Shown: positions 4,497 to 56,857 of the stretch, in pieces | Numbering within the stretch: the first letter of the stretch is position 1 | How the letters are laid out: every line of letters begins with the position of its first letter | Assembly: GCF_900343145.1 (NCBI RefSeq) | Contig: NZ_LT996886.1 | Span: 992,001-1,056,000, forward strand | Origin: Tessaracoccus timonensis | GTDB lineage: Bacteria > Actinomycetota > Actinomycetes > Propionibacteriales > Propionibacteriaceae | Direction: 5' to 3' | Length of the DNA stretch: 64,000 nt | Position numbers and translations under genes: made by a program | The notes under the pieces: generated by a model | What the model was told of the DNA's origin: nothing | Databases searched by the model: none | Seen by the model: the letters and a program-made list of their open reading frames with translations, nothing else

Positions 4497-4539
4497 CCCG
4501 GATGATTGGGCGAGCCCTGCCTGCCACCGCTGGTGTAAA

Positions 4540-4640
4540 ATTCGGCACGACCGTGCGTCGGGGGAATGTGGTGCAAATCCACAGCTGACCCGCAACCGTA
4601 ACGAGCAACGCTCGAAGCCGGAATGCCCGCCCGTGGTCAT
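4540..4640 (+). promoter_or_regulatory. Cobalamin riboswitch (B12 element)
   Basis: The core reads GGTGCAAATCCACAGCTGAC followed directly by CCGCAACCGTA (4570-4600), which matches the conserved B12 box; the 3' part (GAAGCCGGAATGCCCGCC, 4613-4630) matches the terminal conserved block. A TAAAAT hexamer at 4536-4541 is a plausible -10, which would place the transcript start near the 5' edge of the element. Downstream, TGAAAC (4682-4687) can pair with GTTTCA (4708-4713) immediately before the AAGGAG of the next gene, a possible expression platform acting on translation. Such elements repress uptake or synthesis genes when cobalamin is plentiful. The exact 5' boundary is uncertain. Confidence 0.93.
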
Positions 4641-4728
4641 GTTGTAACACCGTCGAGGTCTGCGGTGGAGCGATTTCTTGGTGAAACAGCTCCCAACCGT
4701 GAGGACCGTTTCAGCCAAGGAGTCGTAT

Positions 4729-6573
4729 ATGACCTTGCAGCGAAATCGCGTCCTGGCGTTGCTGATGGCACTCATGCTCGCCATTGGCACACTAGGCACC
4801 GCCCCCGCTCATGCAGACGCGAAACAAGATTCCGTCTCGCAGGCAGCCGATTGGCTCGCCACCACCTGGAAGGAAAAGCCAGGCCAGTACTTTGCCGCCG
4901 GCACCATCGCCGACGGCATCCTCGCCCTGAGCGCTGCGGAAGCGCATCCCGACGTCGTCGAGTCGATGCTCCGAGCGCTGCATGAGAAGACGCCGAGCTA
5001 CGTCGGTACCCCGGACGCAAAGCCCAACCCGGCTGGGCAGGCAAAGATCATCATCACGCTGCTCGCGTCCAACCAGGACCCCCGCACGTTCCTGCCTGGG
5101 CGCGACCTCGTCGCTGAGCTGGTGGACTACGCCAAGGCGAATTCGCAGGACACCAAGGATTTCTGGGCCCCCTACCTGATCGCCATTGCGCTCTCGCGGG
5201 CGGGCGAGCAGGTGCCGCAGTCCGTCATCGACAACATGCTCGCCAACCAGCAGGACGGCGCCTTCGGGTACACCTACAACGGCAAGTTCAACGCCGACCC
5301 CGACTACACCGGCATCGGCATCATGGCCATGAATCTGTTGTCGACGGAAGCCCCCGACCGAGCCACGAGAAACATAGCACTCGACAGCGCGCTGGATGCC
5401 ATCGATTGGGCACAGAACCCGGCCAACCAGAAAACCGACGCCAACGGCAACACGTACTGGGCGACGTACTCGTCGGCAAACAGCACGGGCATGGTCGCCG
5501 GGGGCCTCGCCGAGGCCGGCGAAAACATTGAGTCGCCGGTCGCGTACCTCGTCGACCAGCAGAAGAAGACCGGCACCGGGGCGTGGTCGAACGTGCACGA
5601 TGGCACCAGGAGCGACGTCATGGCCACTACCCAGGCCATCTTTGCTCCCGCGGGTAAGGGCTACGCCACCATCAAGAGCACGCAGGTGAAGCCCATCAAC
5701 TTCAACCCCGCGCCTGATCCGGAGCCGCGGAAACCCGCTACCGCTGACGTTGCGAAAGTAAAGCCTGTCGGCGTACCCGCAAACATCTGGGGCACCGTCG
5801 ACACCGACAAGCCCGTGAAGGTGTGGACGGAGGTGAAGCTGCCCAACGGCACGTGGTCCAAGTCACAAGAACGCACCACCAACGCCAACGGCTACTACGT
5901 CATCCCCCTCACCTACGGCCTGCACACCGCCGGCACCTTGAGCTGGCGCGTCGCAGTCCAGCATGCTGTTGGTGACATCGAGTACACGCCGACGGTTGAA
6001 CAGCGCCGCGTCGTTTCCGTCACCGCGTCTACCGCTGGGCGCGCTGCCGTCGGTACTACCCCGAACGTGTGGGGCACCGCCCGCGGCGCAAGCAACGCGC
6101 GCGTGTGGACAGAGGTGAAGCTGCCCAACGGCACGTGGTCCAAGTCACAAGAACGCACCACCAACGCCAACGGCTACTACGTCATCCCCCTCACCTACGG
6201 CCTGCACACCGCCGGCACCTTGAGCTGGCGCGTCGCAGTCCAGTCCGGCTCCTCTGTGGTACGCAGCGCACCGTTCAACTTCCAGCGCGTAGCTACGGTG
6301 ACCAGCGCATCGGCGGGTACCGCTGCCGTCGGTACTACCCCGAACGTGTGGGGCACCGCCCGCGGCGCAAGCAACGCGCGCGTGTGGACAGAGGTGAAAC
6401 TGCCTAACGGCACGTGGTCGAGATCACAAGAACGCACCACCAACGCCAACGGCTACTACGTCATCCCCCTCACCTACGGCAAGTACACCGCCGGCACCAC
6501 CACCTGGCGCGTCGGTGTGCAAGTAGGAAACACCATCACCTACGGCGCAGCGTTCAACTTCGTGCGCCGCTGA
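4729..6573 (+). CDS. Secreted transcobalamin-like alpha-barrel protein with three C-terminal repeats
   Basis: 614 residues from ATG 4729, chosen over an upstream GTG (4681) because AAGGAG at 4717-4722 precedes it and it gives a clean signal peptide ending in AHA at about residue 30. Residues 35-325 form helical repeats of the prenyltransferase/squalene-cyclase-like alpha6/alpha6 type seen in the alpha domain of intrinsic factor and transcobalamin (ADGILALSAAEAHPDVVESM, AGQAKIIITLLASNQDPRTF, YTGIGIMAMNLLS). The C-terminus has three near-identical units of 93-94 residues, each with ARVWTEVKLPNGTWS and NANGYYVIPLTYG, probably Ig-like and possibly for cell-wall attachment. There is no anchor, so the protein should be exported. 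Being under a cobalamin riboswitch suggests extracellular B12 capture. Cobalamin binding itself is inferred. Confidence 0.82.
   Translation: MTLQRNRVLALLMALMLAIGTLGTAPAHADAKQDSVSQAADWLATTWKEKPGQYFAAGTIADGILALSAAEAHPDVVESMLRALHEKTPSYVGTPDAKPNPAGQAKIIITLLASNQDPRTFLPGRDLVAELVDYAKANSQDTKDFWAPYLIAIALSRAGEQVPQSVIDNMLANQQDGAFGYTYNGKFNADPDYTGIGIMAMNLLSTEAPDRATRNIALDSALDAIDWAQNPANQKTDANGNTYWATYSSANSTGMVAGGLAEAGENIESPVAYLVDQQKKTGTGAWSNVHDGTRSDVMATTQAIFAPAGKGYATIKSTQVKPINFNPAPDPEPRKPATADVAKVKPVGVPANIWGTVDTDKPVKVWTEVKLPNGTWSKSQERTTNANGYYVIPLTYGLHTAGTLSWRVAVQHAVGDIEYTPTVEQRRVVSVTASTAGRAAVGTTPNVWGTARGASNARVWTEVKLPNGTWSKSQERTTNANGYYVIPLTYGLHTAGTLSWRVAVQSGSSVVRSAPFNFQRVATVTSASAGTAAVGTTPNVWGTARGASNARVWTEVKLPNGTWSRSQERTTNANGYYVIPLTYGKYTAGTTTWRVGVQVGNTITYGAAFNFVRR
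5761..6570 (+). repeat. Three in-frame tandem repeats of about 280 bp
   Basis: Units start near 5761, 6043 and 6322. Corresponding positions are 282 and then 279 bases apart (94 and 93 codons). The stretch beginning AGGTGAAGCTGCCCAACGGC is almost identical in all three, with long runs of perfect identity including synonymous positions, so the units were duplicated or homogenised recently. The units differ mainly in the linker between the conserved blocks (for example HAVGDIEYTP versus SGSSVVRSAP). Confidence 0.92.
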
Positions 6574-8042: not shown

Positions 8043-9539
8043 TTAGCCAACAACTCGGACGGTCTCCGTGAACTCGCGCTGCACGTCCGCATTCTCCCGG
8101 TAGGTGACGAGGCTCACGGCCCACGCCACCAGCAGGCCACCGAGGAAGCCGGGGAGGATTTCGTACAGGTCGAAGATGCCGCCGGAGATGTTGCCCCAGA
8201 TGCCGACGATCACCGCACCGGTCACCATGCCCGCGAGCGCACCCATCGCCGAGAGCTTGCGCCAGAACAGGGCGAGGATCACCGTCGGGCCAAATGAAGC
8301 GCCGAACCCCGCCCACGCGAAGGCGACCAGGGCGAGGATGGTGTCATTTTGGGTCCACGCCATCGCGGCCGCGACGATGGCGACGACGAGCACCGCCAGG
8401 CGGCTGAGCAACACGTAGTGATCGTCGGAGCGGGGATTCTTGTGGAGCGCCTTGACGATGTCTTCGATGAGTGCCGATGCGGTGACGAGCAGCTGGCTCG
8501 AGATCGTCGACATGATCGCGGCCAGCACCGCCGCCAGCAGGAAGCCCGCGATGAGCGGATGGAACAGGATCTGCCCCATGTCGATGAACACGGTTTCGGG
8601 GTCGGCGAGCGTGCTGCCCTCGCGCTGATGCCAGGCAACGCCGACGAGCGCCGTCGCCACCGCACCTGCCACGGCGAAGAGCATCCAGCCGATGCCGATT
8701 CGACGGCCGGCGCGGGCCTCGTCGGTGGAGCGCAGCGCCATGAACCGCACGATGATGTGCGGCTGCCCGAAGTAGCCAAGCCCCCAAGCCAGCGCGGAAA
8801 TGATGCCGATCGCCGCCACTGATGTCATGGGGCTGGGCAGCACGGCGAGCCGATTGAGGCCTTCCGCCGCGTCGGCCTGCGCCACCAGGCTGCCCACCGC
8901 GCCCGGGCCGCCGAGGACGATCATGCCTACCACCGGCACGAGGATCAGCCCGAGCGCCATCATGAGGCCCTGCACGAAGTCGGTGTAGCTCACGGCCAGG
9001 AAGCCGCCGACGAGCGTGTAGGTGATCGTGACCGCGGCGGCGATGAGCATGCCGACGCGGTAGTCGAGGCCAAAGCTGGACTGCATGAACACGCCGCCGG
9101 CCACCATGCCCGAGCTCACGTAGAACGTGAAGAACACCAAGATGATGAGGCCCGACGCGATCCGCAACAAGCGCGACCTGTCGCGCAGGCGGTTCTCAAG
9201 GAAGCTGGGGATGGTGATGGAATCGTTCGCCACCTGCGTGTACGCGCGCAGCCTCGGCGCGACGAGTTTCCAGTTGCACCATGCGCCGACGGTGAGCCCC
9301 ACCGCAATCCATGCCTCGACGAGCCCGCCGACGTAGATGGCACCCGGCAGCCCCATGAGCAGCCATCCGGACATGTCGGCGGCGCCTGCTGAGAGTGCCG
9401 CGACGGCGGGGTGGAGGTCGCGCCCACCGAGCATGTAGTCGCCGAGGTCGTTCGTCTTCTTGTACGAGTACCACCCGATCAGCAGCATGGCCACCAGGTA
9501 GGCGATCATCGCGATGAGTTGGAACGCGGATGCTCCCAC
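8043..9539 (-). CDS. putP: Sodium/proline symporter
   Basis: 498 residues with about 13 hydrophobic helices. The sodium:solute symporter signature is visible: DYMLGGRDLHPAVAALSAGA near residues 33-52 with ADMSGWLLMGLPGA after it, GLILVPVVGM further on, and a long run of glycine-rich helices. These match PutP, which takes up L-proline with Na+ for nutrition or osmoprotection. The length equals the family norm. A GTG start with an AAGGGG ribosome site is used. No putA is adjacent, so the role here is uptake rather than a coupled catabolic locus. A family B repeat lies just upstream. Confidence 0.92.
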   Translation of the reverse strand: MGASAFQLIAMIAYLVAMLLIGWYSYKKTNDLGDYMLGGRDLHPAVAALSAGAADMSGWLLMGLPGAIYVGGLVEAWIAVGLTVGAWCNWKLVAPRLRAYTQVANDSITIPSFLENRLRDRSRLLRIASGLIILVFFTFYVSSGMVAGGVFMQSSFGLDYRVGMLIAAAVTITYTLVGGFLAVSYTDFVQGLMMALGLILVPVVGMIVLGGPGAVGSLVAQADAAEGLNRLAVLPSPMTSVAAIGIISALAWGLGYFGQPHIIVRFMALRSTDEARAGRRIGIGWMLFAVAGAVATALVGVAWHQREGSTLADPETVFIDMGQILFHPLIAGFLLAAVLAAIMSTISSQLLVTASALIEDIVKALHKNPRSDDHYVLLSRLAVLVVAIVAAAMAWTQNDTILALVAFAWAGFGASFGPTVILALFWRKLSAMGALAGMVTGAVIVGIWGNISGGIFDLYEILPGFLGGLLVAWAVSLVTYRENADVQREFTETVRVVG

Positions 9540-9600: not shown

Positions 9601-9681
9601 CACCCGACGAGCGAGATAGTGTGAGATCTGTTGCGGGTTTCCGGAACAAATCTCACACGTTGAGGGGTGTGGGCGCGGCAG
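9601..9681. repeat. Palindromic repeat, family B copy 1
   Basis: Contains GTGTGAGATCTGTT (9619-9632) and AACAAATCTCACAC (9645-9658), an imperfect inverted repeat. The whole 81-base stretch recurs at 17221-17301 with only three or so differences, including flanks outside the hairpin (CACCCGACGAGCG before, TTGAGGGGTGTGGGCGCGGC after). It lies between putP and the ROK regulator. Confidence 0.88.
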
Positions 9682-9713
9682 GTGGTCACACTGCGGGCCG
9701 CACCCGATGAGGT

Positions 9714-10934
9714 TCAAGACGGAAGCCGGGTTTGGCCGTGGAGCATGAGTTTGGCAGGGCGTGGCCCGAGCAGTCGGTCAAAGACGAGACATGCAGCACC
9801 CACCGCGCCAAGGTCCTCGCCGAGGCGACTCGCGCGGCAGGTGACCTTGTGGATGGCGCGGGCGCTGAGCTCGTCGGCGAGCTCCCTGAGACGTCCCTGC
9901 GAAAGCCGCGGCTCGAAGAAGCACCACATCGGCCCGCCGAACACGAGCCGATTCACATCGTGAAGTAGCGCCATGTTGCGTCCAAGATGCAGGAGCCCAT
10001 CGGCAGCCGCGGTCAGGGCTCGATCCACCTGTGGTTCGTCGTCCGCCCGACGAACCAACTCGGCCATACCCACGCTCACCCGAGGTCCGCAACCGAAGCG
10101 GGCCACCAACGCCGAGGGCGCCACGACGGATGCGACGCACCCCTGCGAGCCGCAGTCGCAGCGAGCCCCATCGGGGTCGACGATGAGATGCCCCACTTCT
10201 CCGGCGTTGCCGGAGACTCCCACGCCGGTCTCTCCATCCACATGCACACCCACACCAATGCCCGTGCCGACATAAATAACGGCGGTAGAGTCACGGCGAA
10301 TCCCACTGCCGTACCACGCCTCCGCGACGGAGGCGGCGGCAACGTCCTTGGCGAGCACGACGGGCAAGCCGACTGCGTCTTGCAGGGCATCCGCCAGAGG
10401 CACCTCGACCCAACGAGGCAGGTTGGGGGGCCGCACCACAGCGCCTGCATCGCGATCGATGGGGCCAGGCGTGCCGACGCCGACTCCCAGCAGGCGCGCA
10501 CCATCCACGTCGGGCAGTTCGCACAGCTCGCGGACGACAGAGGCCATTGCTTCAATCGAAGGCCCGGGCTCGCCTCCGGACGGCAGCTCAAACTCCCGGC
10601 GTTCACGCACGTTGCCTGCGATGTCGAGTAGGACAGCTGACGATGTGTCCGGGTCAACGAGGACGCCTACCGCGAACAGCCCATCCGGCTTCGCGGCCAA
10701 CGCGGTGCGGGGCTTACCCGTCGGCGTCGCAATCCGGCCAGCTTCGACGATAATCCCGTCGTCGATCAGCCGTCGGCAGATGTTGGTCACCGTCTGCGAC
10801 GCAAGGCCGGTCATGGCCGCGATCTCTACGCGTGAGATCGACTTGGCTCTCCGAATCGCATCGAGCACCACGGCCTGATTCCAGGAGCCAACGAGCACGG
10901 CGTTACTGCCTGTGCGCGACGGTGCTCGATTCAC
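9714..10934 (-). CDS. ROK-family transcriptional regulator of the mannoside locus
   Basis: 406 residues. A winged helix-turn-helix lies at about 10-70 (ISRVEIAAMTGLASQTVTNI). A ROK sugar-kinase-like domain follows, with LLGVGVGTPGPIDRDAG, an AEVGHL-like block (NAGEVGHLIVDP) and the zinc site CDCGSQGC. NagC/Mlc/XylR-type ROK proteins repress sugar genes and release DNA when they bind a sugar ligand. The gene is divergent from the adjacent ABC importer and alpha-mannosidase, so it most likely controls them through the 94-base intergenic region. Whether it keeps kinase activity is unclear. Confidence 0.9.
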   Translation of the reverse strand: MNRAPSRTGSNAVLVGSWNQAVVLDAIRRAKSISRVEIAAMTGLASQTVTNICRRLIDDGIIVEAGRIATPTGKPRTALAAKPDGLFAVGVLVDPDTSSAVLLDIAGNVRERREFELPSGGEPGPSIEAMASVVRELCELPDVDGARLLGVGVGTPGPIDRDAGAVVRPPNLPRWVEVPLADALQDAVGLPVVLAKDVAAASVAEAWYGSGIRRDSTAVIYVGTGIGVGVHVDGETGVGVSGNAGEVGHLIVDPDGARCDCGSQGCVASVVAPSALVARFGCGPRVSVGMAELVRRADDEPQVDRALTAAADGLLHLGRNMALLHDVNRLVFGGPMWCFFEPRLSQGRLRELADELSARAIHKVTCRASRLGEDLGAVGAACLVFDRLLGPRPAKLMLHGQTRLPS

Positions 10935-11028
10935 GGATTGATCCTCTCACGAATGCTTGCATAAGACTTTATCCATATGATTGACTAACGCAAAGGTAGA
11001 CATTCCTCGCAGGCAAAGGAGCACGCGA

Positions 11029-12393
11029 ATGCACAAAAAACTCATCACACTCGGCAGCTTGGCGCTGAGCCTCACGCTCGCCCTCAGCGCCTGCGGGTCC
11101 GGGTCCGGGTCCGCAGACGGCAACGAGGACAAGACGATCAAGGTCATGTACCAGCGCACTGAAGGTGTGCAGACCATGGATCACTTGTTCAATGCCGCAA
11201 AAGAGCAATTCGAAAAGGAAAACGACGGCGTGACGATCAAGCTGGAGCCGATTGAGGCCGCGGAGGACGACTACGCCACCCAGCTCGCACTCTCTCAGCA
11301 GTCACCCGACACCGCACCCGACGTCTTCTATCAAGACACCTTCCGAGTGCGCTCCGACGTCGCCGCCGGATATCTCTTGCCGCTCGACAACTACCTGGAG
11401 CAGTGGGACGACTGGGGCAACTTCATCGACGCAGCAAAGGAAGCAGGCCGCGACGGCGACAAGACCTACGCTATTCCGCTCGGCACGGATACTCGCGGCA
11501 TCTGGTACAACAAGAACGTCTTCGAGAAGGCAGGGATCGCCACGCCCTGGCAGCCCAAGGACTGGCAGGACATCCTCGACGCTGCGGAGAAGATCAAGTC
11601 CTCGGATCCCGACGTGGTCCCCTTCCACATGTATGCCGGCAAGCCTGCCGGTGAAGGCACCGCGATGCAGAGCTTCCTCATGCTTCTCTACGGCACGGGC
11701 GACGGAAAGGGACTCTACGACGAGGACTCCAGCAAGTGGATCGTCGGCTCGAAGGGCTTTGTCGACTCGCTGCAGTTCTTGAAGGATCTGTACGACGGCG
11801 GCTACTCCGTCCCCGCCAAGGAGGCGCTCGACGCCAACCTCTGGCAGACCGTCTTCGACACGAGATTCCCCGAAAACAAGCTGGGCGGTATCGTCGAAGG
11901 TTCCTACGGCGCCTCGTTCTGGGCTGAGCAGGGCCCCTACCCGTGGGCCGAGTTCAAGGACAACATCGAGGTCACGGGCTTCCCGACGCAGGAAGGGCAG
12001 GGCCCGGGCTACGTCTCGATGTCGGGCGGCTGGACGGTCGCCATCGGCGCGAACACCAAGCACCCCGACGAGGCATTCAAATTCCTCACCTATGTGTTCA
12101 ACTTCGAGAACAACCGCGATCACGTCGTGGAGGCCGCCAAGATCGCCGTCCGTAAGGACGTCGCCAAGGACCCGAAGTATCTGGAATCCGACCCGTACGT
12201 CGAATTCTTCACCAAAGCGGTCGAGTTTTCTCACTACCGTCCGGCCACCGCGGATTACCCGCGCATCTCGGCTGAGCTGCAGAGCGCCACTGAGAAGGTG
12301 GTCACCGACGCTGCCACTCCGGAGGAGGCTGCCAAAGCCTACGACGAGGCCCTGAAGGGTATCGTCGGCGCCGATAACGTGACGGAGGGCTGA
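11029..12393 (+). CDS. ABC transporter sugar-binding lipoprotein
   Basis: 454 residues from ATG 11029, preceded by AAGGAG (11016-11021); an upstream in-frame TTG (10981) is less likely. It has a lipoprotein signal with lipobox LSAC, the lipid-bearing cysteine being residue 22. The mature protein is a family 1 extracellular solute-binding protein, with long alpha/beta lobes and motifs such as YAIPLGTDTRGIWYNKNVFEKAG and VSMSGGWTVAIGANTKHPDEAF. Two permeases and an alpha-mannosidase follow in the same operon, so the ligand is probably a mannose-containing oligosaccharide or glycoside (inference from context). A TATGAT hexamer at 10976-10981 may be the -10. Confidence 0.92.
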   Translation: MHKKLITLGSLALSLTLALSACGSGSGSADGNEDKTIKVMYQRTEGVQTMDHLFNAAKEQFEKENDGVTIKLEPIEAAEDDYATQLALSQQSPDTAPDVFYQDTFRVRSDVAAGYLLPLDNYLEQWDDWGNFIDAAKEAGRDGDKTYAIPLGTDTRGIWYNKNVFEKAGIATPWQPKDWQDILDAAEKIKSSDPDVVPFHMYAGKPAGEGTAMQSFLMLLYGTGDGKGLYDEDSSKWIVGSKGFVDSLQFLKDLYDGGYSVPAKEALDANLWQTVFDTRFPENKLGGIVEGSYGASFWAEQGPYPWAEFKDNIEVTGFPTQEGQGPGYVSMSGGWTVAIGANTKHPDEAFKFLTYVFNFENNRDHVVEAAKIAVRKDVAKDPKYLESDPYVEFFTKAVEFSHYRPATADYPRISAELQSATEKVVTDAATPEEAAKAYDEALKGIVGADNVTEG

Positions 12394-12398
12394 TACGT

Positions 12399-13322
12399 AT
12401 GGCCCGGCTAGGAACAGCCCCGACGCCACGCGTCGCCCAGCGGCGTCGTGAGCAAATCGACGTGCGCCCGCTCCAGCGCGCCCTGCCACTGGTGCCCGCC
12501 GTCTTGATGCTCGGGGTATTCCTTGCCGGGCCCATCGTCTGGTCGCTGTATAGCGCCTTCACCAACGCGGCACTCACGGGACCCAATGCCCAGAACCCCC
12601 AGTGGGTCGGTGGCGCCAACTTTGCAAAACTGTTCACCGACCCGACATTCCCCAATGCCTTGTGGCTCACGCTGGTGTTCGTCCTATTCTCGGCCATCAT
12701 CGGCCAGAATGGTCTCGGCATGGCGCTGGCCTTGCTCATGCAGGTCTCGGGACGCACCATCGCCAGGCTCACCGGCACGATCGTCGTCGTGGCTTGGATC
12801 CTCCCTGAGATCGTCGCCGCCTTCGCCCTGTACGCATTCTTTGTCGGAGATGGCATGCTCGACCAGGGCATGGCCCTCATCGGGCTGGCTCCCGGTAACT
12901 GGCTCTACACCGCGCCCCTCGTCGCTGTCATTCTCGCCAACATCTGGCGCGGCACCGCGTTCTCCATGATGATTTACCAAGCCGCATTTAGCGGCATCCC
13001 GGATGATGTGCTCGAGGCCGCGCAGATTGACGGCGCGGGCGCCTGGCAGCGATTTACCAGGGTGTCACTTCCCATGATCCGCACGTCGATCGGCACCAAC
13101 CTGATGCTCATCACGCTGCAAACCTTGTCGGTGTTCACCCTCGTGTGGGTCATGACCAAGGGCGGGCCGAGCAACCGTTCGATGATTCTTCCGGTATATG
13201 CCTACGAGCAGGCATTCAGCTTCTACGACATCGGCTATGGCTCCGCGATCGCGACGGTCATGCTGCTCGTGGGCGCCGTATTCGGCCTCACGTATGTCCG
13301 GCTACTCAGGACGGAGGACTGA
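12399..13322 (+). CDS. ABC sugar permease, MalF-type
   Basis: 307 residues with six predicted membrane helices after a basic N-terminus. The EAA loop that docks the ATPase is clear near residues 205-225: EAAQIDGAGAWQRFTRVSLP. This is the first of the usual pair of CUT1-type permeases. It begins six bases after the binding-protein gene and is followed by the partner permease two bases after its stop. No ATPase gene lies in the operon; many actinobacterial CUT1 systems share one ATPase encoded elsewhere (MsiK type). Confidence 0.93.
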   Translation: MARLGTAPTPRVAQRRREQIDVRPLQRALPLVPAVLMLGVFLAGPIVWSLYSAFTNAALTGPNAQNPQWVGGANFAKLFTDPTFPNALWLTLVFVLFSAIIGQNGLGMALALLMQVSGRTIARLTGTIVVVAWILPEIVAAFALYAFFVGDGMLDQGMALIGLAPGNWLYTAPLVAVILANIWRGTAFSMMIYQAAFSGIPDDVLEAAQIDGAGAWQRFTRVSLPMIRTSIGTNLMLITLQTLSVFTLVWVMTKGGPSNRSMILPVYAYEQAFSFYDIGYGSAIATVMLLVGAVFGLTYVRLLRTED

Positions 13323-13324
13323 CA

Positions 13325-14167
13325 ATGCGTCGACACACATTGGGCGCAACGGGCCTGACGTCCCGACTCGCCGCCAATCTGGCCCTGATCTTCGTGGGGG
13401 TCGTGTTTCTCGTCCCGCTCGCCTGGCTCGTGCTCGCCTCGCTTGATTCGGCTCCATCCGCGCAAATAGCCGCGCCGAGGAGTATCACGCTCAAGAACTT
13501 CGCCGAGGTCTTCACGTGGGAGCTCGGCATCCAGCCGCTAATCAACAGCCTTCTGCTGTCGCTGGGGTCGTCGCTCGTCACTGTGATCGTCGCATTGCTG
13601 GCGAGCTATCCGCTCTCCCGGTATCAGATGCGATTCAACCAGCCGTTCCTCTACACAGTGCTGCTGACCTCATGCCTACCCATGTCCGCGCTGATGGTGC
13701 CCGTGTTCTCGCTCGCCGTGCGCGCCGGAGTGCTCGACTCCCTACCGGTGACCGCCCTCTTCATGTCTGCAACCGCCCTGCCCATGGCGATCTGGATGAC
13801 GAAGAACTTCATGGACTCGGTTCCCATCGTGCTCGAAGAGGCTGCCTGGACCGACGGCGCTTCCCGCCTACACGGCCTCTGGCGGGTTGTCGTACCACTG
13901 ATGCAACCGGGCGTCGCAGTGGTGTTCATTTACGTGTTCATGCAGGCATGGGGCAACTTCTTCGTACCCTTCCTGCTGTTGCGTAGCCGGAGCAAACACC
14001 CCGCTGCTGTGACGATCTACCAATTCTTCGGCCAGTACGGCGCAATCAACTACGGCATGCTGGCGGCCTTCTCGATCCTCTACGCCTTGCCGGCCATCTT
14101 CCTGTATCTCCTCGTATCCCAGAAATTCGGAGCCTCATTCGCGGGCTCTGGCGCGGTGAAAGGTTGA
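13325..14167 (+). CDS. ABC sugar permease, MalG-type
   Basis: 280 residues from ATG 13325, two bases after the first permease's stop; the longer upstream frame would overlap the first permease by almost 180 bases and is rejected. Six membrane helices are predicted. The EAA loop reads EEAAWTDGASRLHGLWRVVV near residues 175-195, and the C-terminal end (QKFGASFAGSGAVKG) is typical of MalG-type proteins. It completes the membrane channel of the importer. Confidence 0.93.
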   Translation: MRRHTLGATGLTSRLAANLALIFVGVVFLVPLAWLVLASLDSAPSAQIAAPRSITLKNFAEVFTWELGIQPLINSLLLSLGSSLVTVIVALLASYPLSRYQMRFNQPFLYTVLLTSCLPMSALMVPVFSLAVRAGVLDSLPVTALFMSATALPMAIWMTKNFMDSVPIVLEEAAWTDGASRLHGLWRVVVPLMQPGVAVVFIYVFMQAWGNFFVPFLLLRSRSKHPAAVTIYQFFGQYGAINYGMLAAFSILYALPAIFLYLLVSQKFGASFAGSGAVKG

Positions 14168-14170
14168 TCC

Positions 14171-17100
14171 GTGGCACATTTCAGCACCCAACACGTCCGT
14201 GACCAGGCCAGTCGTTGGCTCGATCAGGTGATCCGACCGGCCGTCCATATTGCCAAGGCGCCCGTCGTCGTCGATGCGTGGGAAATCCCCGACGAACCGA
14301 TTCCTTTCACGCAGGCAGTGCAGGGCGACTTCCGACCCATGGATTTGGATGCCCCTTGGGGCCGCCCATGGGGCACCACATGGCTGCGCGTCAGCGGTGA
14401 GATCCCGTCCCAATGGGAGCAGGGCCCGACGCAGAGTGCAGAACTCATCGCCGACATCGGTTTCAACGCCGTGCAGACGGGTTTTCAGTGCGAAGCTCTC
14501 GCCTACGACTCCCGGGGCCGCGTCATCAAGGCTGTTGAGCCGTTCAATCGCTACGTGCCGCTAGAGCGCGTCACCGAAGGAGGCCGCTTCGAGCTGTACC
14601 TAGAGGCGGCGTCCAACCCCGACGTCATCCACGGCTGGAGCTTCGAACCGACGAGGCTCGGCACCCCGGACGCGCTGCAGGGAGAGCGCCAATACCGCGT
14701 CCGTGAGATCGCTGTCGGACTACGCAGCACGGTGGTGGCTGATCTCATCATCGACCTCGAAGTGCTGCTGGGGCTCGCCCAGGAGCTGGGCGACGATACA
14801 ACGCGAGGTACGCAGATCTTGTCTGCGGTCTCGCGAGCCCTCCAGTCACTCGACCCGGGCGACGTCGTCGGCACCGCCGCGACGGCCCGTGCGGCTCTTG
14901 AACCCGTACTGCGGGGCCCAGCCCACGTCGGAGCCCACAACATCAGCGCTGTCGGGCACGCACACATCGATTCCGCCTGGCTCTGGCCCATCCGAGAGAC
15001 CGCACGCAAAGTGGCCCGCACCTGGTCCAATGTGCTCGACCTCATGGATCAGCACCCAGACTTCCACTTCGCCGCGTCATCCGCGCAGCAGTACGCGTGG
15101 CTGAAGGAACACCATCCCGACCTGTTCGCGCGGCTGCGCGAAGCTGTGCGGTCGGGCAAGTTCGTCCCCGTCGGCGGGATGTGGGTCGAGTCCGATTCCA
15201 ACATGCCGGGCGGCGAGGCGATGGCGCGGCAGTTCATCGAAGGGACGAAGCTCTTCCGAAAGGAATTCGGCACCGAGCCGGCCGAGGCGTGGCTTCCGGA
15301 CTCGTTCGGCTATTCGGCGTCGATGCCGCAGATCGCGAAGCTCGCCGGTGCGAAGTGGTTCCTGACGCAGAAGCTCTCCTGGAACGAGGTCAACCGGATG
15401 CCACACCACACGTTCTGGTGGGAGGGACTCGACGGTTCACGCATTTTCACGCATTTCCCACCCTCAGATACGTACGGCTCTGATCTAGGAGCAGCTGACC
15501 TGCACCGGGCTGAACGCCAATACAGCGAAAAGTCGGTTGCCAACTCGTCGCTGTTGCTCTTCGGCTACGGCGACGGCGGTGGCGGCCCCACCCGCGAGAT
15601 GCTGGCGCGCGCACAGCGGTGCGCAGAACTGGCTGGCTCGCCGAAGGTCAAGCTGGACAGCCCACGTAACTTCTTTGCCTCGGCTCAGGAGGAGTACCCC
15701 GACGCGCCAGTGTGGAACGGTGAGATGTACCTCGAATTCCATCGCGGCGTCTTCACGTCCCAAGCCGAGGGCAAGCGGGGCAACCGTCGTACCGAAGCGC
15801 TGCTCCACGAAGCCGAGCTCTGGGCGGCCACCGCCGCCGTGCGCGCTGGGCGTCGCTACCCCTACGAGCAGCTCGAGCGCCTCTGGCGACAGACGTTGCT
15901 GTTCCAATTCCACGACATCCTGCCCGGCACCTGCATCAAATGGGTGCACGACGAGGTCGCACGCACCTACGCCGAGATGTTCGCCGAGCTCGAGACGATC
16001 ATCGACGAGTCCCTCACCGCGATCGTTGGGGATGGACATTCCGAGATGAACGCCGTCGCGGCGCCGATCGAGGCCACCCAGGGCGGCATCACTGCGATGA
16101 CCACCGACGACCAACCTGTCGCCGCGAGAACCGAGGGCGACCTCGTCATCCTCGAACACGCGCACGCCAGAGTCGTTGTCAACCGTTTGGGGCGCATCGT
16201 GAGTGCCGTGGATCTCGCGACGGGGAGGGAAGCGATCGCCGAGGGGGCTGGCGGCAACGTTCTGCAGCTGTTCCGCGACCGCCCCACGACGTGGGACGCG
16301 TGGAACATCGACCGCGACTACGAACTCGTTGGCCGGTTGCTCGAAGCCGATTCAGTGACGTTGGAGGGCGACGTAATCGTCGTCGTGACGAGCACGGGTC
16401 CGTCAACCATCACCCAGCGGATCACGCTGACCCCAAGGCGGGCTGGCGTCGCCATCTCCACTGTTGTGGACTGGGCGGATCAGGAGCAGCTGTTGAAGCT
16501 CGGTTTCGGACTCGACGCTCATGCCGACTATTCGGCGTGCGAGACGCAGTTCGGTCATGTGAAGCGTCCGGTGCACCGCAATACGTCGTGGGACGCCGCA
16601 CGCTATGAGATCCCCGCGCACCGCTGGTTGCACGTCGGCGAGACCGATTACGGCTTCGCTCTGGCCACGTCGGTCTACGGTCACGACGTGACCCGCACCG
16701 TGGGCGAGGACGGGGGCACCACGACGTGGGTCCGCGCATCCTTGCTCCGCGGCCCGCGATACCCGGACCCGGAGGCCGACCAGGGCCGGCACGAATTCCA
16801 CCATGTCCTGCGCCTAGGTGCGACGATCGCCGACGCCTGTGACGAGGGCTACCTGCTGCACCACCGGCCACGGACGCTTACTGGCGCCCACCCCGTCGAG
16901 CCGCTCGCGACGGTGACCGGACGTGCGGTGCGGCTCGAGACCGTGAAGCTCGCCGAGGATGGCTCAGGCGACCTTGTGCTGCGGCTTTACGAATCACTCG
17001 GCGGACGGGCGTCGACGGTGCTGAGCGTGGACCCCGAATTCGTGTCCGCGAGCATCACCGACCTCCACGAGACTGTGCTCGACCCACTGGAAGTGGAGCC

Positions 17101-17176
17101 CGGGGCGCGCAGCTCCATCCAACTCACGCTGCGACCGTTCCAGATTCTGACCGTTCGCTGCGCGCGGAAGGCGTGA
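14171..17176 (+). CDS. Alpha-mannosidase, glycoside hydrolase family 38
   Basis: 1001 residues from GTG 14171, three bases after the permease. The N-terminal part is a beta-rich domain; the catalytic GH38 domain starts around residue 255 with GHAHIDSAWLWP, whose His and Asp bind zinc. The likely nucleophile is the Asp of WLPDSFGYS near residue 377. A helical domain and a long beta-sandwich C-terminal region follow, and the length matches bacterial and vacuolar-type GH38 enzymes. There is no signal peptide, so it should cleave imported mannosides in the cytoplasm. Together with the importer and ROK regulator it forms a mannose-glycan utilisation operon. Confidence 0.94.
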   Translation: MAHFSTQHVRDQASRWLDQVIRPAVHIAKAPVVVDAWEIPDEPIPFTQAVQGDFRPMDLDAPWGRPWGTTWLRVSGEIPSQWEQGPTQSAELIADIGFNAVQTGFQCEALAYDSRGRVIKAVEPFNRYVPLERVTEGGRFELYLEAASNPDVIHGWSFEPTRLGTPDALQGERQYRVREIAVGLRSTVVADLIIDLEVLLGLAQELGDDTTRGTQILSAVSRALQSLDPGDVVGTAATARAALEPVLRGPAHVGAHNISAVGHAHIDSAWLWPIRETARKVARTWSNVLDLMDQHPDFHFAASSAQQYAWLKEHHPDLFARLREAVRSGKFVPVGGMWVESDSNMPGGEAMARQFIEGTKLFRKEFGTEPAEAWLPDSFGYSASMPQIAKLAGAKWFLTQKLSWNEVNRMPHHTFWWEGLDGSRIFTHFPPSDTYGSDLGAADLHRAERQYSEKSVANSSLLLFGYGDGGGGPTREMLARAQRCAELAGSPKVKLDSPRNFFASAQEEYPDAPVWNGEMYLEFHRGVFTSQAEGKRGNRRTEALLHEAELWAATAAVRAGRRYPYEQLERLWRQTLLFQFHDILPGTCIKWVHDEVARTYAEMFAELETIIDESLTAIVGDGHSEMNAVAAPIEATQGGITAMTTDDQPVAARTEGDLVILEHAHARVVVNRLGRIVSAVDLATGREAIAEGAGGNVLQLFRDRPTTWDAWNIDRDYELVGRLLEADSVTLEGDVIVVVTSTGPSTITQRITLTPRRAGVAISTVVDWADQEQLLKLGFGLDAHADYSACETQFGHVKRPVHRNTSWDAARYEIPAHRWLHVGETDYGFALATSVYGHDVTRTVGEDGGTTTWVRASLLRGPRYPDPEADQGRHEFHHVLRLGATIADACDEGYLLHHRPRTLTGAHPVEPLATVTGRAVRLETVKLAEDGSGDLVLRLYESLGGRASTVLSVDPEFVSASITDLHETVLDPLEVEPGARSSIQLTLRPFQILTVRCARKA

Positions 17177-17220
17177 GCTGCCTCGGCATCAACCCTGCTG
17201 GGAGCGCCGCACGCAGGTCG

Positions 17221-17301
17221 CACCCGACGAGCGGGACAGTGTGAGATCTGTTGCGGGTTTCCGTAACAAATCTCACACGTTGAGGGGTGTGGGCGCGGCA
17301 G
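17221..17301. repeat. Palindromic repeat, family B copy 2
   Basis: Near-identical to 9601-9681 over 81 bases, including flanks. The hairpin arms lie at 17239-17252 and 17265-17278. It sits between the stops of the alpha-mannosidase and gtrA-like genes, which converge. Confidence 0.88.
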
Positions 17302-17331
17302 ACGCCGTCGGCGACGGTCCCCGTCGGGGAT

Positions 17332-17811
17332 TTACGACGGCGAGAGCCGCCGTCGAAACACCCACAACCGGGACAGCAGGTAGATATAGATGCCCTCTGC
17401 GAAGGCGGCGAGGATGCGCGCCAGCTCAGGGGGTACGCCGAGCGCGTTCAGCATCCACGAAAAGCAGAGGATCCAGAGCACGTAGTTCGTCACCAGCACC
17501 AACAGGTAGCGCCCGGATTGCCGCCCGGTGTCGCCGTGGGCGCGGAAGTTGAGCAGCTTGTTGAGCACGAACGCGACGCTCGCCGCCACTGCGAAACTCA
17601 CCGACACCGCGACGGGGTACGGCCACCTGAGCCCACGCGTGCTGAACGACAACAGGACTAGGTCGAGGAGGAACGTCGAGGAGTTGATGATCGCAAACCC
17701 GATGAAGGTCTGCGGCAGGAAGCGCCGGATTTGGCTGGGCATGAGGGCATGCAACCAGCCGGTGAAGGCATTGAATGCCTCCGCCGCTGTTGTCTTCGTC
17801 GCGTCCGCCAC
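17332..17811 (-). CDS. GtrA-family membrane protein
   Basis: About 159 residues with four membrane helices. The first helix (TFIGFAIINSSTFLLDLVLL) and the motif SFAVAASVAFVLNKLLNF are typical of GtrA/DPMS_related proteins, which are thought to move polyprenyl-linked sugars or aid glycosyltransferases. I prefer GTG 17811 because a CATACT hexamer stands 6 bases before it, consistent with a leaderless transcript; a longer frame to 17841 is possible. There is no adjacent glycosyltransferase, so the substrate is unknown. Confidence 0.83.
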   Translation of the reverse strand: MADATKTTAAEAFNAFTGWLHALMPSQIRRFLPQTFIGFAIINSSTFLLDLVLLSFSTRGLRWPYPVAVSVSFAVAASVAFVLNKLLNFRAHGDTGRQSGRYLLVLVTNYVLWILCFSWMLNALGVPPELARILAAFAEGIYIYLLSRLWVFRRRLSPS

Positions 17812-17970
17812 AGGGAAAGTATGACGCACGACGGGCACCACGCGACGCGGTCGTCAAGGGCCGAGAGGCCGAGGAGCGGTATCGGCCGTGAGTCGACGTC
17901 GTCGGCGAGCAGGCGCAGGGGCCCCGAATTCGGCCGCCACGTCGGTTGTCCCTGAACGCCTCCGCCAGGT

Positions 17971-18993
17971 TCAACCCAAGAAGCTCGCAAGCCCAATCAG
18001 CAGCGGAAGCAGCAGTAGGCCCAGCACGACGGACACGAACAGCCGGTGGTCTCGCAACACGGCCAGGTATTCGCGGATCGTCGCCGCCGGCCAGTAGTAG
18101 CGCGCGGTCCGGTAGCCAAGGGCATAGCCCGGCACCTTGGCGCGACGCATCATCGTCGCGGCACGAAACGCGTGATAGTCATTCGTCGCAACCACCACAG
18201 GCCCATGAATCCCCTTGTCCCGCAGCAGTTCGGCAGTGAGGGCGAGGTTCTCTGCGGTCGTCGTCGAGCGATCTTCCAGCCAGATTCTCTCCGACGGCAC
18301 CCCTCGGCCATGCGCATACTCAGCCATGGCCGACGCCTCGGAGACCTCTTCATCGGCGCCCTGTCCACCAGACATGATGATGGGAATGTCACGCCCTCCG
18401 CTCCACTCCTTGCGCGCGAGTTCCAGCCCCTTATCGATGCGACGCCCGAGCAGCGGCGACACCGACCGTCCACGCAGCGCACCACCCAGCACGACGACCG
18501 CACTCACCTGCCTACCGAACCGGCCAAACCACCAGACATAAAAGTTGGAGTAGAAGAGGAAGCTCACGAACCCGACGGCCAACGCCAGCAGGGGTAGCCC
18601 GAGCGCGCCAAGAATGAATGCCTGCCGTTCCCACTGCAGCAAGTAAGCGACGAGGAACGCGGCCACGTAGGCGAGCATCCCGGCTCCGACAAGGCCGGAC
18701 AGCAACGTGGCGCGGGTGCGTCCTTCTCTGCGCAGCATCAACACGAAGTTGGCGATGAGGAATACCCCGACGATCACCGGCGAGCCCAGCAACACCAAGG
18801 CGAGCACGACGAGCACTAACTCGAACGGCAACCCCACCACCGGCAACGTAGCGGCAACGCCCATCCACAGCGCCACCTGCGCCAGGAACGCAGCAACCCC
18901 GAAGGTCAGCAGAAACCCCGGCCACACGACGCGTGGCTCGATGGCGAACCACACCGCAAACGCGACAAGACACACCAAGGCAACGACAAGCAT
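17971..18993 (-). CDS. YdcF/DUF218-family membrane protein
   Basis: 340 residues. The first half holds five or so membrane helices; the second half (from about residue 165) is a DUF218 domain, with VVVLGGALRGRSVSPLLGRR, IIMSGGQGADEEVSEASAM, LEDRSTTTAENL and VVVATNDYHAFRAATMMRR. DUF218 proteins such as ElyC and SanA are linked to envelope and peptidoglycan-precursor homeostasis; the molecular activity is not settled. The fusion of a polytopic N-terminal part to DUF218 is common in actinobacteria. It ends with one more C-terminal helix. Confidence 0.85.
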   Translation of the reverse strand: MLVVALVCLVAFAVWFAIEPRVVWPGFLLTFGVAAFLAQVALWMGVAATLPVVGLPFELVLVVLALVLLGSPVIVGVFLIANFVLMLRREGRTRATLLSGLVGAGMLAYVAAFLVAYLLQWERQAFILGALGLPLLALAVGFVSFLFYSNFYVWWFGRFGRQVSAVVVLGGALRGRSVSPLLGRRIDKGLELARKEWSGGRDIPIIMSGGQGADEEVSEASAMAEYAHGRGVPSERIWLEDRSTTTAENLALTAELLRDKGIHGPVVVATNDYHAFRAATMMRRAKVPGYALGYRTARYYWPAATIREYLAVLRDHRLFVSVVLGLLLLPLLIGLASFLG

Positions 18994-19148
18994 GACCTAA
19001 TTACACCGCAAGCTGTTGTCGCACGTCAGTAGTGCCAGCTCCACTGTCGACGGTGGCCCGGCCCCTACGCACTTGGCGGCGCGGGCGTCGTCGGGGCAAT
19101 CTTCGTCTACACGACACAGGATTCTCGCGGGACGACGGGCCTCATAGT

Positions 19149-19184
19149 GTGAGATGTGTTGCGGAAAACCGCAACACATCTCAC
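19149..19184. repeat. Palindromic repeat, family B-like copy 3; possible feo terminator
   Basis: GTGAGATGTGTTGCGG (19149-19164) and CCGCAACACATCTCAC (19169-19184) form a perfect 16-bp stem with an AAAA loop. The arms resemble family B (GTGTGAGATCTGTTGCGG). It lies 14 bases past the stop of the leftward feo operon, so it may double as its terminator, though no T-run follows. Confidence 0.85.
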
Positions 19185-19197
19185 GAAATGAGCGATC

Positions 19198-19485
19198 TTA
19201 GCCGGGGCGTCGGGTGAGTTTCAGCATCACGGGCCCGCGCGCGGTGTGCATTCCCGACGCGCCACAGCCGGCCGATCCGTCGGCCTTGCCGCTGGGGCAG
19301 GCGCCGCAGCCACCGTCGGGGCAACCGGACGAGAGCTGCTCCGAGACGAGGAACCCCGTGCGCTCAAGGTGGGCCAGGGCGGCGTCGACAACATCGGGCG
19401 CGAGGCCCGTCGCGCGTGCGATGCCGGCGCGAGTGCCGACGCCGTCGCCGATCGCGTGGGCCACCTGGGTGAGCGGGCCGCTCAC
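19198..19485 (-). CDS. FeoC-like winged-helix protein with cysteine cluster
   Basis: About 95 residues from GTG 19485, which overlaps the feoB stop (GTGA). The N-terminal half reads as a small winged helix (AHAIGDGVGTRAGIARATGL, then VVDAALAHLERTGFLVSE). It is followed by a loop with four closely spaced cysteines (GCPDGGCGACPSG) and one more (GCGASG), the kind of cluster that binds an Fe-S centre in FeoC proteins. FeoC is thought to regulate or stabilise FeoB. Gene position, size and cysteine loop all fit; sequence identity to characterised FeoC cannot be checked here. Confidence 0.8.
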   Translation of the reverse strand: MSGPLTQVAHAIGDGVGTRAGIARATGLAPDVVDAALAHLERTGFLVSEQLSSGCPDGGCGACPSGKADGSAGCGASGMHTARGPVMLKLTRRPG

Positions 19486-31750: not shown

Positions 31751-32218
31751 ATGAGCTTCCAAGACGCCTTCGAGAAATACGCGCCCCACTTCGTCTGGGA
31801 CGCCTACGACTACGCCAACAACTCACCACAAATCGAGATGCTCTGGCTCCACATCGAATCCAACGGCACCAAATCAGTCACTACAGCTACTATCTACCGC
31901 ATCAACGGCAAACCCTACCTCGCCCACGACCTACACAAAGTACTCGACAACTTCGACTACGATGACGAGGCCATCCAAGCCTTCTATGACCAGCAATTCG
32001 ACTGCTGGGAGGGGCTCTACGACGAGTCCCAACCAGACGAGCTACCCACCCGCATGATCCTGCGGTTCCGGCCAGAAGACCAAGACTTCACCGCAGACTT
32101 CCATTACGGCGACCTCCAACCAGGCGTCCCAGAAGAAGAGAAATCCGCACCACGCGAGATCATCATGAAGTGGATCGAACGGCTCGAAGCCACCGGCAAC
32201 GACTCCGCCGCACCCTAA
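31751..32218 (+). CDS. YezG/DUF600-like immunity protein, copy 1
   Basis: 155 residues; ATG 31751 is chosen because GGAG (31740-31743) is spaced correctly and because all four copies start MSFQDAF. The order of blocks, HIESNG, TIYRINGK, YDDEAIQ, a conserved CWEGLYDESQPDELPTRMIL and DFTADFHYGDLQPG, matches DUF600 proteins such as YezG, the immunity factor for the B. subtilis YeeF nuclease toxin. It is acidic, as is common for nuclease immunity. It follows the nuclease by 10 bases. It is the only copy with a clear ribosome site. Confidence 0.82.
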   Translation: MSFQDAFEKYAPHFVWDAYDYANNSPQIEMLWLHIESNGTKSVTTATIYRINGKPYLAHDLHKVLDNFDYDDEAIQAFYDQQFDCWEGLYDESQPDELPTRMILRFRPEDQDFTADFHYGDLQPGVPEEEKSAPREIIMKWIERLEATGNDSAAP

Positions 32219-32233
32219 CCCACCAACCACACC

Positions 32234-32701
32234 ATGAGTTTCCAAGACGCCTTCGAAGAATACGCTCCCCACTTCGTCTGGGACGCCTACGACTACGCCA
32301 ACAACTCACCACAAATCGAGATGCTCTGGCTCCACATCGAATCCAACGGCACCAAATCAGTCACCATTACCACCATCTACCGCATCAACGGCAAACTCTA
32401 CGAAACCCACAAAATCGACGAAATACTCGACAACTTCGACTACGACGAAGACACCCTCCGAAGCCTCTATGACCAGCAATTCGACTGCTGGGAGGGGCTC
32501 TACGACGAATCCCAACCAGATGAGCTCCCCACCCGCATGATCCTACGCTTCCGGCCCGAAGACCAAGACTTCACCGCAGACTTCCACTACGGCGACCTCC
32601 AACCAGGCATCCCAGAAGAAGAGCGGTTGGGACCCGACGGGATCTCCACAAAGTGGATCGAACGGCTCGAAGCCACCGGCAACGACTCCGTCGCCCCCTA
32701 A
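32234..32701 (+). CDS. YezG/DUF600-like immunity protein, copy 2
   Basis: 155 residues, very similar to copy 1. Differences cluster around residues 43-47, 55-80 (ETHKIDEILDNFDYDEDTLR instead of LAHDLHKVLDNFDYDDEAIQ) and 131-140 (ERLGPDGIST). No Shine-Dalgarno sequence precedes the ATG; the 15-base gap reads CCCACCAACCACACC, so translation probably depends on re-initiation from copy 1. The changed patches are where specificity could vary against different nuclease variants. Confidence 0.8.
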   Translation: MSFQDAFEEYAPHFVWDAYDYANNSPQIEMLWLHIESNGTKSVTITTIYRINGKLYETHKIDEILDNFDYDEDTLRSLYDQQFDCWEGLYDESQPDELPTRMILRFRPEDQDFTADFHYGDLQPGIPEEERLGPDGISTKWIERLEATGNDSVAP

Positions 32702-32716
32702 CCCACCAACCACACC

Positions 32717-33184
32717 ATGAGTTTCCAAGATGCCTTCGAAGAATACGCGCCCCACTTCGTCTGGGACGCATACGACTACGCCAACAACTCACCCCAAATC
32801 GAGATGCTCTGGCTCCACATCGAATCCAACGGCACCAAATCCGCCACTACAGCTACTATCTATCGCATCAACGGCAAACTCTACCTCGCCCATGACCTCG
32901 ACGAAGCACTAGACGATTTCAAGTACGACGATGAGCAGATGCGATCCTTCTACCGCCAGCAAATCGACTGTTGGTTCGGGCTCTACGACGAGTCCCAACC
33001 AGACCAGGTCCCTGACCGCATGATCCTACGGTTCCGGCCCGAAGATCAAGACTTCACCGCAGACTTCTACTACGGCGACCTCCAACCAGGCATCCCAGAA
33101 GAAGAGAAATCCGCACCACGCGTCATCATAAAGAAGTGGGTCGAACGGCTCGAAGCCACCGGCAACGACTCCGCCGCCCCCTAA
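32717..33184 (+). CDS. YezG/DUF600-like immunity protein, copy 3
   Basis: 155 residues. It shares most of copy 1's sequence but carries FKYDDEQMRSFYRQQIDCWF around residues 68-86, DQVPDR in place of DELPTR, and DFYYGD in place of DFHYGD. The C-terminal PRVIIKKWVERL resembles copy 1. The 15-base upstream gap repeats CCCACCAACCACACC and lacks a ribosome site. Its reading frame is intact, so all copies look expressible. Confidence 0.8.
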   Translation: MSFQDAFEEYAPHFVWDAYDYANNSPQIEMLWLHIESNGTKSATTATIYRINGKLYLAHDLDEALDDFKYDDEQMRSFYRQQIDCWFGLYDESQPDQVPDRMILRFRPEDQDFTADFYYGDLQPGIPEEEKSAPRVIIKKWVERLEATGNDSAAP

Positions 33185-33194
33185 CCCACCAACC

Positions 33195-33662
33195 ATGAGT
33201 TTCCAAGACGCCTTCGAAAAATACGCGCCCCACTTCATCTGGGACGCCTACGACTACGCCAACAACTCACCACAAGTCGAGATGCTATGGCTCCACATCG
33301 AATCCAACGGCACCAAATCAGTCGCGCCGGCCACCATCTACCGCATCAACGGCAAACCCTACCTCGTACACGACCTACACAAAGTACTCGACGGTTTCGA
33401 CTACGACGACGACGCCATCCGAAGCCTCTACCGCCAACAACTCGACTGCTGGTACGGGCTCTACGACGAATCCCAACCAGACGAACTCCCCACCCGCATG
33501 ATCCTACGCTTCCGGCCCGAAGACCAAGACTTCACCGCAGACTTCCACTACGGCGACCTCCAACCAGGCATCCCAGAAGAAGAACAAGCACCATTTGGCC
33601 GCCTCGTCTTCAAATGGATCGAACGGCTCGAAACCACCGGCAACGACTCCGCCGCGCCCTAA
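33195..33662 (+). CDS. YezG/DUF600-like immunity protein, copy 4
   Basis: 155 residues. It differs from copy 1 at VAPATIYRINGKPYLVHDLH (43-62), FDYDDDAIRSLYRQQLDCWY and the tail EEEQAPFGRLVFKWIERLET. The upstream gap is shorter (10 bases, CCCACCAACC), again without a ribosome site. It is the last gene before the convergent glgX, whose stop lies 34 bases further. Confidence 0.8.
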   Translation: MSFQDAFEKYAPHFIWDAYDYANNSPQVEMLWLHIESNGTKSVAPATIYRINGKPYLVHDLHKVLDGFDYDDDAIRSLYRQQLDCWYGLYDESQPDELPTRMILRFRPEDQDFTADFHYGDLQPGIPEEEQAPFGRLVFKWIERLETTGNDSAAP

Positions 33663-44975: not shown

Positions 44976-44984
44976 CGACAGAAA

Positions 44985-45064
44985 AACTTCATAATCCGTA
45001 CGCAGTTTGACCAAACTCCCCAAAATCGGGCCCGTAGTCTCATCTGCGTACGGATTATGAAGTT
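44985..45064. repeat. 80-bp palindromic element, family C copy 1
   Basis: Perfect 21-bp terminal inverted repeats at 44985-45005 and 45044-45064 (AACTTCATAATCCGTACG...) enclose a 38-bp core. It lies in the sdhB-adh intergenic region. Copies 2 and 3 have the same total length. Confidence 0.92.
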
Positions 45065-46169: not shown

Positions 46170-46198
46170 CGCCGGTTGCGCGCCGGCGCCGGATGCGA

Positions 46199-46278
46199 AA
46201 CTTCAAAATCCGTACGCAGATGAGACTAAGGGCCTGATTTAGAGGGGTTCAGTCAAACTGCGTACGGATTTTGAAGTT
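46199..46278. repeat. 80-bp palindromic element, family C copy 2 (inverted core)
   Basis: Perfect inverted repeats 46199-46219 and 46258-46278. The 38-bp core is similar to copy 1 only on the opposite strand, so this copy is inverted relative to copies 1 and 3. It follows the alcohol dehydrogenase gene by 29 bases. Confidence 0.92.
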
Positions 46279-56769: not shown

Positions 56770-56777
56770 CCACGAAA

Positions 56778-56857
56778 AACTTCATAATCCGTACGCAGCT
56801 TGACCAAACATGCCGAAATCGGGGGGTTAGCTGAATCTGCGTACGGATTTTGAAGTT
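56778..56857. repeat. 80-bp palindromic element, family C copy 3
   Basis: Terminal arms 56778-56798 and 56837-56857 are inverted repeats of 21 bases with one mismatch (AT versus TT near the centre). The core is in the same orientation as copy 1 and shares TTGACCAAAC and AAATCGGG with it. Confidence 0.92.

Follow-up and report, generated by a model that had tools for sequence, protein, structure and literature searches.

We have investigated a window of 64,000 nt from Tessaracoccus timonensis, corresponding to bases 992001-1056000 of the single 2.759-Mb contig of its genome (G000), in which a mannoside utilisation locus is found between two copies of a hairpin-forming repeat (Table 1). The locus, 7.6 kb in length, comprises genes for a ROK-family regulator, a solute-binding protein and two permeases of an ABC importer, and a GH38 alpha-mannosidase. 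As the first-pass annotation had claimed, it is bracketed by near-identical sequences, units D and E, which are 96% identical over 81-82 nt and run in the same direction (E 2.1e-32, whole genome). Reading of the alignment revealed three differences in 81 bases, with a single difference in the 40-nt hairpin core, which consists of 18-nt arms and a 4-nt loop and is accompanied on one side by a tail of ~20 nt. In unit D this tail separates the hairpin from the ROK stop codon and has the - strand sequence CCGCGCCCACACCCCTCAAC. The third, shorter relative reported at 19149-19184 was also recovered as a diverged copy, unit F, with a perfect 16-bp stem (19149-19164/19169-19184) and an AAAA loop, 11 nt past the stop codon of the small gene that directly follows the feoB gene. 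When three strands of units D and E were folded, two scored better than all 200 dinucleotide shuffles, and the + strand of the unit at 9601 better than all but one of 200.

Table 1. Genes and hairpin units at the mannoside locus, and copies of the hairpin elsewhere in the T. timonensis chromosome. Window positions count from the first base of the window; core starts are contig positions obtained by BLAST with the 83-nt unit.
Feature	Window position	Strand	Core start in contig	Remarks
putP, sodium/proline symporter	8043..9539	-		left neighbour of unit D; TIGR02121 above cut-off
Unit (copy) D	9601..9681	+	1001619	left flank, core 9619-9658, tail 9659-9681
ROK-family regulator	9714..10898	-		3' end facing unit D; start by codon model, longest ORF to 10934
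ABC importer solute-binding protein	11029..12393	+		longest ORF from 10981
ABC permease 1	12462..13322	+		longest ORF from 12399
ABC permease 2	13340..14167	+		longest ORF from 13145
GH38 alpha-mannosidase	14171..17176	+		3' end facing unit E
Unit (copy) E	17221..17301	+	1009239	core 17239-17278, tail as in D; convergent gap GH38/GtrA
GtrA-type membrane protein	17332..17811	-		3' end facing unit E tail
DUF218 protein	17971..18993	-		between units E and F
Unit (copy) F	19147..19186	-	1011147	diverged copy, 16-bp perfect stem
Small cysteine-containing protein	19198..19485	-		directly behind FeoB, then unit F
Copy A			280717	
Copy B			281718	
Copy C			707507	
Copy G			1800491	
Copy H			2067028	
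Copy I			2626524	
Copy J			near 52254	half copy

Other repeats were observed in the same sequence. A second palindromic family, 84 nt in length with arms AACTTCATAATCCGTACGCAG and variable middles, is present at 44981-45064, 46195-46278 and 56774-56857 of the window, and a third, which includes GTGACACATGTTCCGG in an imperfect palindrome about 125 nt long, occurs as 11 copies in eight of nine stretches outside the window (L105-L108, L110-L113). Four tandem 155-aa ORFs are located at 31751-33662, their DNA being 86-89% identical to the first over 300 nt with a spacing of 478-483. At 4514-6573 a cobalamin riboswitch, the only element detected in an Rfam scan of the window, is followed by a 614-aa ORF containing three 236-nt repeats in its 3' part.

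The hairpin of units D, E and F, here termed family B, is dispersed across the chromosome, where ten firm places were detected, three of them inside the window; a covariance model added two doubtful places, 526762 and 833135, which stand outside this count. Most copies are single and adjoin core genes, gltX, AHCY and an ABC-F gene among them. Among the nine full copies, the 40-nt cores agree at 34-40 of 40 positions and several carry the same off-centre mismatches, indicating that the copies descend from one another, and from this we infer that they have been copied around the chromosome as a unit. The tenth, copy J, is a half copy whose right arm is gone where an IS30-type element starts, next to the hairpin loop. 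This element (1,251 bp, GCGGGTTCTAGGGG ends, HTH_38 and rve domains) occupies about 52250-53535 of the contig (L046:5254-6533).

A small, dispersed palindromic unit without coding sequence is also what characterises a MITE, and family B might represent a miniature inverted-repeat element that a DDE insertion sequence mobilises in trans. Its short palindromes are dispersed, and the arm GTGAGATCTGTTGCGG resembles GTGACATCTGTTCCGG, an arm from another palindromic family of G000. However, all 14 exact arm matches in G000 fall within the hairpins themselves, so that no full element with these ends, and hence no parent, was found there, and inspection of the copy alignments by eye revealed no flanking target duplication, the borders of the element not being sharp. 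We consider a MITE origin highly improbable.

Family B is restricted in its occurrence. Among 39 genomes of the genus it was detected in G000 only, being absent from the 38 other species (one genome per species). A covariance model matched five of 198 genomes of the family, G000 included, of which one proved on reading to be a true relative: a MAG of another genus of the same family (G082). Read individually, the matches in G144, G134 and G086 are unrelated hairpins having only the stem tip in common with family B. The MAG contains 14 sister hairpins with the structure GATCGTGTGAGAT-21 nt-ATCTCACACGATC, one or two mismatches being present in some arms. A strict pattern returned 0 stretches in 84,980 species, in scans which may omit records of the window's own genome, and a loose pattern applied to genome contigs returned 19, six of them in MAG JAAYAO01 (Propionibacterium sp.), which is taken as G082. 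No family-B match was observed in phage and plasmid collections, and viral contigs yielded 0 stretches with the strict and five with the loose pattern.

The position of the hairpins with respect to genes was determined with a simple codon-model gene caller corrected by Pfam hits. In G000 the copies are mostly near gene 3' ends, three being in convergent (A, E, G), six in tandem (B, C, D, F, H, J) and one in divergent gaps (I), with site C reassigned from the script's convergent call to tandem owing to a PIN-domain ORF and site I divergent owing to an ASCH gene. Taken on its own the bias in this genome is weak (convergent 3/10, p 0.08). In G082, ten hairpins are in tandem gaps, four of the 14 in convergent gaps (p 0.02) and none in divergent gaps (0/14, p 0.004 against gap lengths), and most lie 22 nt or less from a gene 3' end. 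For tandem gaps of both genomes, the hairpin is nearer the 3' end in 13 of the 15 evaluated sites (p 0.004; C and I left out), or 13 of 16 if site I is counted against. Six copies (A, B, C, D, E, J) have a tail similar to CCGCGCCCACACCCCTCAAC, which separates the hairpin from the end of the coding sequence. Thus, family B lies preferentially behind genes. Location mostly behind genes, as opposed to promoters, argues against a duplex operator or architectural element bound by a protein through GTGTGAGAT half-sites. Such a site would fit the conservation of the outer arm GTGTGAGAT in both genera, the inner part being variable in G082. However, comparison of neighbour genes within 2.6 kb of the hairpins in G000 and G082 revealed one homologous pair only, at different gaps, and we give the operator reading very little credence.

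Location behind genes is shared with REP elements. One source (PMC3733652) describes these as palindromes found mostly behind genes and between unidirectional or convergent genes, tagged at the foot with GTAG or CGTC, some units supplying the stop codon of a neighbour; copy numbers above 100 per genome are given in another (PMC2817692). Family B resembles REP and REPIN sequences in being a short palindromic intergenic hairpin, mostly behind genes and rarely between divergent ones, and hairpin A, which contains the TGA stop codon of an AbiEi-like ORF, matches the stop-codon supply described there. It differs in numbering about ten copies, compared with the more than 100 given for REP, and in having a tail on one side. 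Alignment of the G000 copies revealed no foot tag common to them, neither GTAG nor CGTC, the foot sequences being different. Membership of the RAYT/REP system itself was rejected for want of Y1_Tnp, as the Y1 (PF01797)/RAYT transposase gave 0 matches in G000, G082 and G022, a further genome of the genus, while five of 14 control genomes were positive.

A strong stem-loop shortly behind stop codons is equally a property of intrinsic terminators. No U-run follows the full stem, the only structure listed being a 5-bp internal stem with a T-run on the - strand of D and E, and the family-B hairpin is therefore not a canonical intrinsic terminator. The copies are, in addition, mutually homologous, which distinguishes them from such terminators. 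They could still be fixed terminators of some kind, alike through function and without any mobility, as most G082 sites and several G000 sites are close behind stop codons and as the AHCY gap, which is conserved in G022, contains a different, unrelated strong hairpin in that genome (GGATCCGGGGTCGA...TCGACCCCGGATCC, L158) in the place of copy G. However, unrelated terminators would not have 34-40 of 40 bases, off-centre mismatches and a 20-nt tail in common, and absence from the 38 other species of the genus, together with the lack of a U-run, also contradicts this explanation, which appears improbable. A hand tally of G-U against A-C on the sense strand of tandem sites revealed no consistent RNA-level selection, with 7 G-U and 2 A-C in G000 (six tandem sites, one doubtful) and 13 and 16, respectively, in G082 (nine tandem sites; L156 left out). 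Covariation in the G000 copies was no better than in shuffles.

The first-pass annotation had further proposed that the direct repeats could mediate gain or loss of the locus they flank, and had suggested a genome-wide search for the unit. As direct repeats of 81 bp, D and E could in principle recombine. The search established dispersal to the ten firm places described above, and the connection with gain and loss was supported in part only. The locus was compared with G022, the nearest searched relative, this being the member of the genus with the closest DUF218 homologue (71%), which is located elsewhere in that genome. Neither GH38 nor PutP has a match in G022 at the thresholds used, in agreement with the proposal. 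In G022 the genes for FeoB, the small protein and GtrA are consecutive, DUF218 is found about 7 kb further and other genes come after GtrA, while 23 to 62 kb of the window is collinear with one G022 contig. This comparison of gene order indicates that differences in gene content occur not only near units E and F but also on the far side of unit D, so that G022 differs beyond the repeats. Also against the proposal, family B is present at ten dispersed places, and over 30 kb separate each of the two other GH38 genes of G000 from the nearest firm copy. Base composition inside the locus is ordinary (63.9% G+C, window mean 64.9%), and another genome (G001) contains ROK-SBP-permease-permease-GH38 in the same order without a family-B hairpin.

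There is a second direct pair. Copies A and B, whose cores are identical at 40/40 positions, are 1.0 kb apart (280717-281757; L047:4717-5757) and enclose one solo gene with AbiEi and weak DUF559 similarity. In G022, the gene A_L (56% identical) and gltX (85%) converge directly, with 3 nt separating the stop codons, and this gap contains no hairpin; in G000 they are separated by 1,060 nt, hairpin A beginning 2 nt past the stop codon of one gene and the tail of hairpin B extending up to that of the other. The hairpin-gene-hairpin arrangement at gltX was either inserted cleanly in G000 or deleted cleanly in G022, two alternatives indistinguishable from the single relative compared at this site.

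Both closest pairs, A/B and D/E, thus enclose genes which are missing at that place in G022. These most similar core pairs, 40/40 and 39/40, are both direct and both less than 10 kb apart (permutation p 0.008 for the 40-nt core, a test done after relatedness and neighbourhood had been compared over 52 nt with flanks, p 0.22), and three of ten spacings between copies are under 10 kb (simulated p 0.003). Copy C is likewise located, with the PIN-domain ORF, inside ~3.4 kb that is extra with respect to G022 (about 705550-708950; L048:3550-6947), between the gene for peptide methionine sulfoxide reductase and its convergent neighbour. These observations are compatible with cassette-like boundaries, in which recombination, whether homologous or dedicated, would insert a block whose last gene is followed by a hairpin at another hairpin already in place, so that the block comes to lie between two direct hairpins and could be lost precisely again. 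At gltX, for example, A, B and the AbiEi/DUF559-like gene replace the 3-nt gap, the extra DNA being delimited by the hairpin units themselves. Integron cassettes and IS26-type translocatable units work in a similar manner, the arrangement considered here being neither. Integron attC sites, with their RYYYAAC ... GTTRRRY core sites, resemble family B in forming a hairpin behind a gene, and the direct hairpins around an extra gene at 280717/281718 are reminiscent of a cassette. In contrast to integron cassettes, the family-B sites are scattered and form no cassette array. The attC consensus was not seen in most copies, CCTCAAC / GTTGAGG-like flanks being present in part of them.

Several findings speak against cassette-like exchange. 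An empty site with one hairpin left was not seen, the G022 gap being without one, and the 14 hairpins of G082 are on 14 different contigs with no close pair seen. Gene order is conserved in G022, the one relative compared, across one of nine hairpin gaps (J left out), against six of the 11 ordinary pairs of neighbours that served as a control. This control is weak, the pairs being few and not independent of one another, and consists of immediate neighbours in the window, bait genes not immediately adjacent being left out. The base composition inside the mannoside locus is, as noted, ordinary. We therefore regard insertion of such blocks at resident hairpins as unlikely, and their precise loss between direct hairpins as equally doubtful. 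A more far-reaching version, in which the hairpins are recombination or transposition ends and genes travel together with tail and hairpin to land beside resident hairpins, in the absence of any array or RAYT, has a slim chance of being correct. The hairpin-gene-hairpin beside gltX could then be the autonomous form, the DUF559-like protein acting on the hairpins; a literature search for AbiEi with DUF559 found no paper.

Combined, these results indicate that D and E are best taken for copies of a hairpin repeat specific to this lineage, rather than for dedicated mobility ends of a sugar-use locus. Family B is, with reasonable probability, a low-copy, lineage-restricted, REP-like hairpin repeat situated behind genes and probably acting on transcript ends. 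The unit, with its imperfect 18-bp stem and 4-nt loop, would have been spread through the chromosome by an agent that our searches did not reveal, and copies would persist mostly where harm is small or some benefit accrues, behind genes and between convergent genes. The folded transcript would probably serve as a bidirectional barrier to transcription or as a protector of 3' ends. D and E, a sister pair as are A and B, may have arisen by local copying, the mannoside locus simply being in between.

If the hairpins are ends that travel with genes, single genes or operons, such as the AbiEi/DUF559-like gene and the mannoside locus, would have precise direct-repeat boundaries and be subject to reversible loss. 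If family B is only REP-like, it would add a low-copy, RAYT-less case to the small repeats of genomes, one that has a sister family in a second genus of the Propionibacteriaceae. The A/B pair around a solo AbiEi/DUF559-like gene offers a clean, testable case for the relation between hairpins and gene gain, and the mannoside locus carries a warning that direct repeats flanking a catabolic locus need not be the ends of a mobile element.
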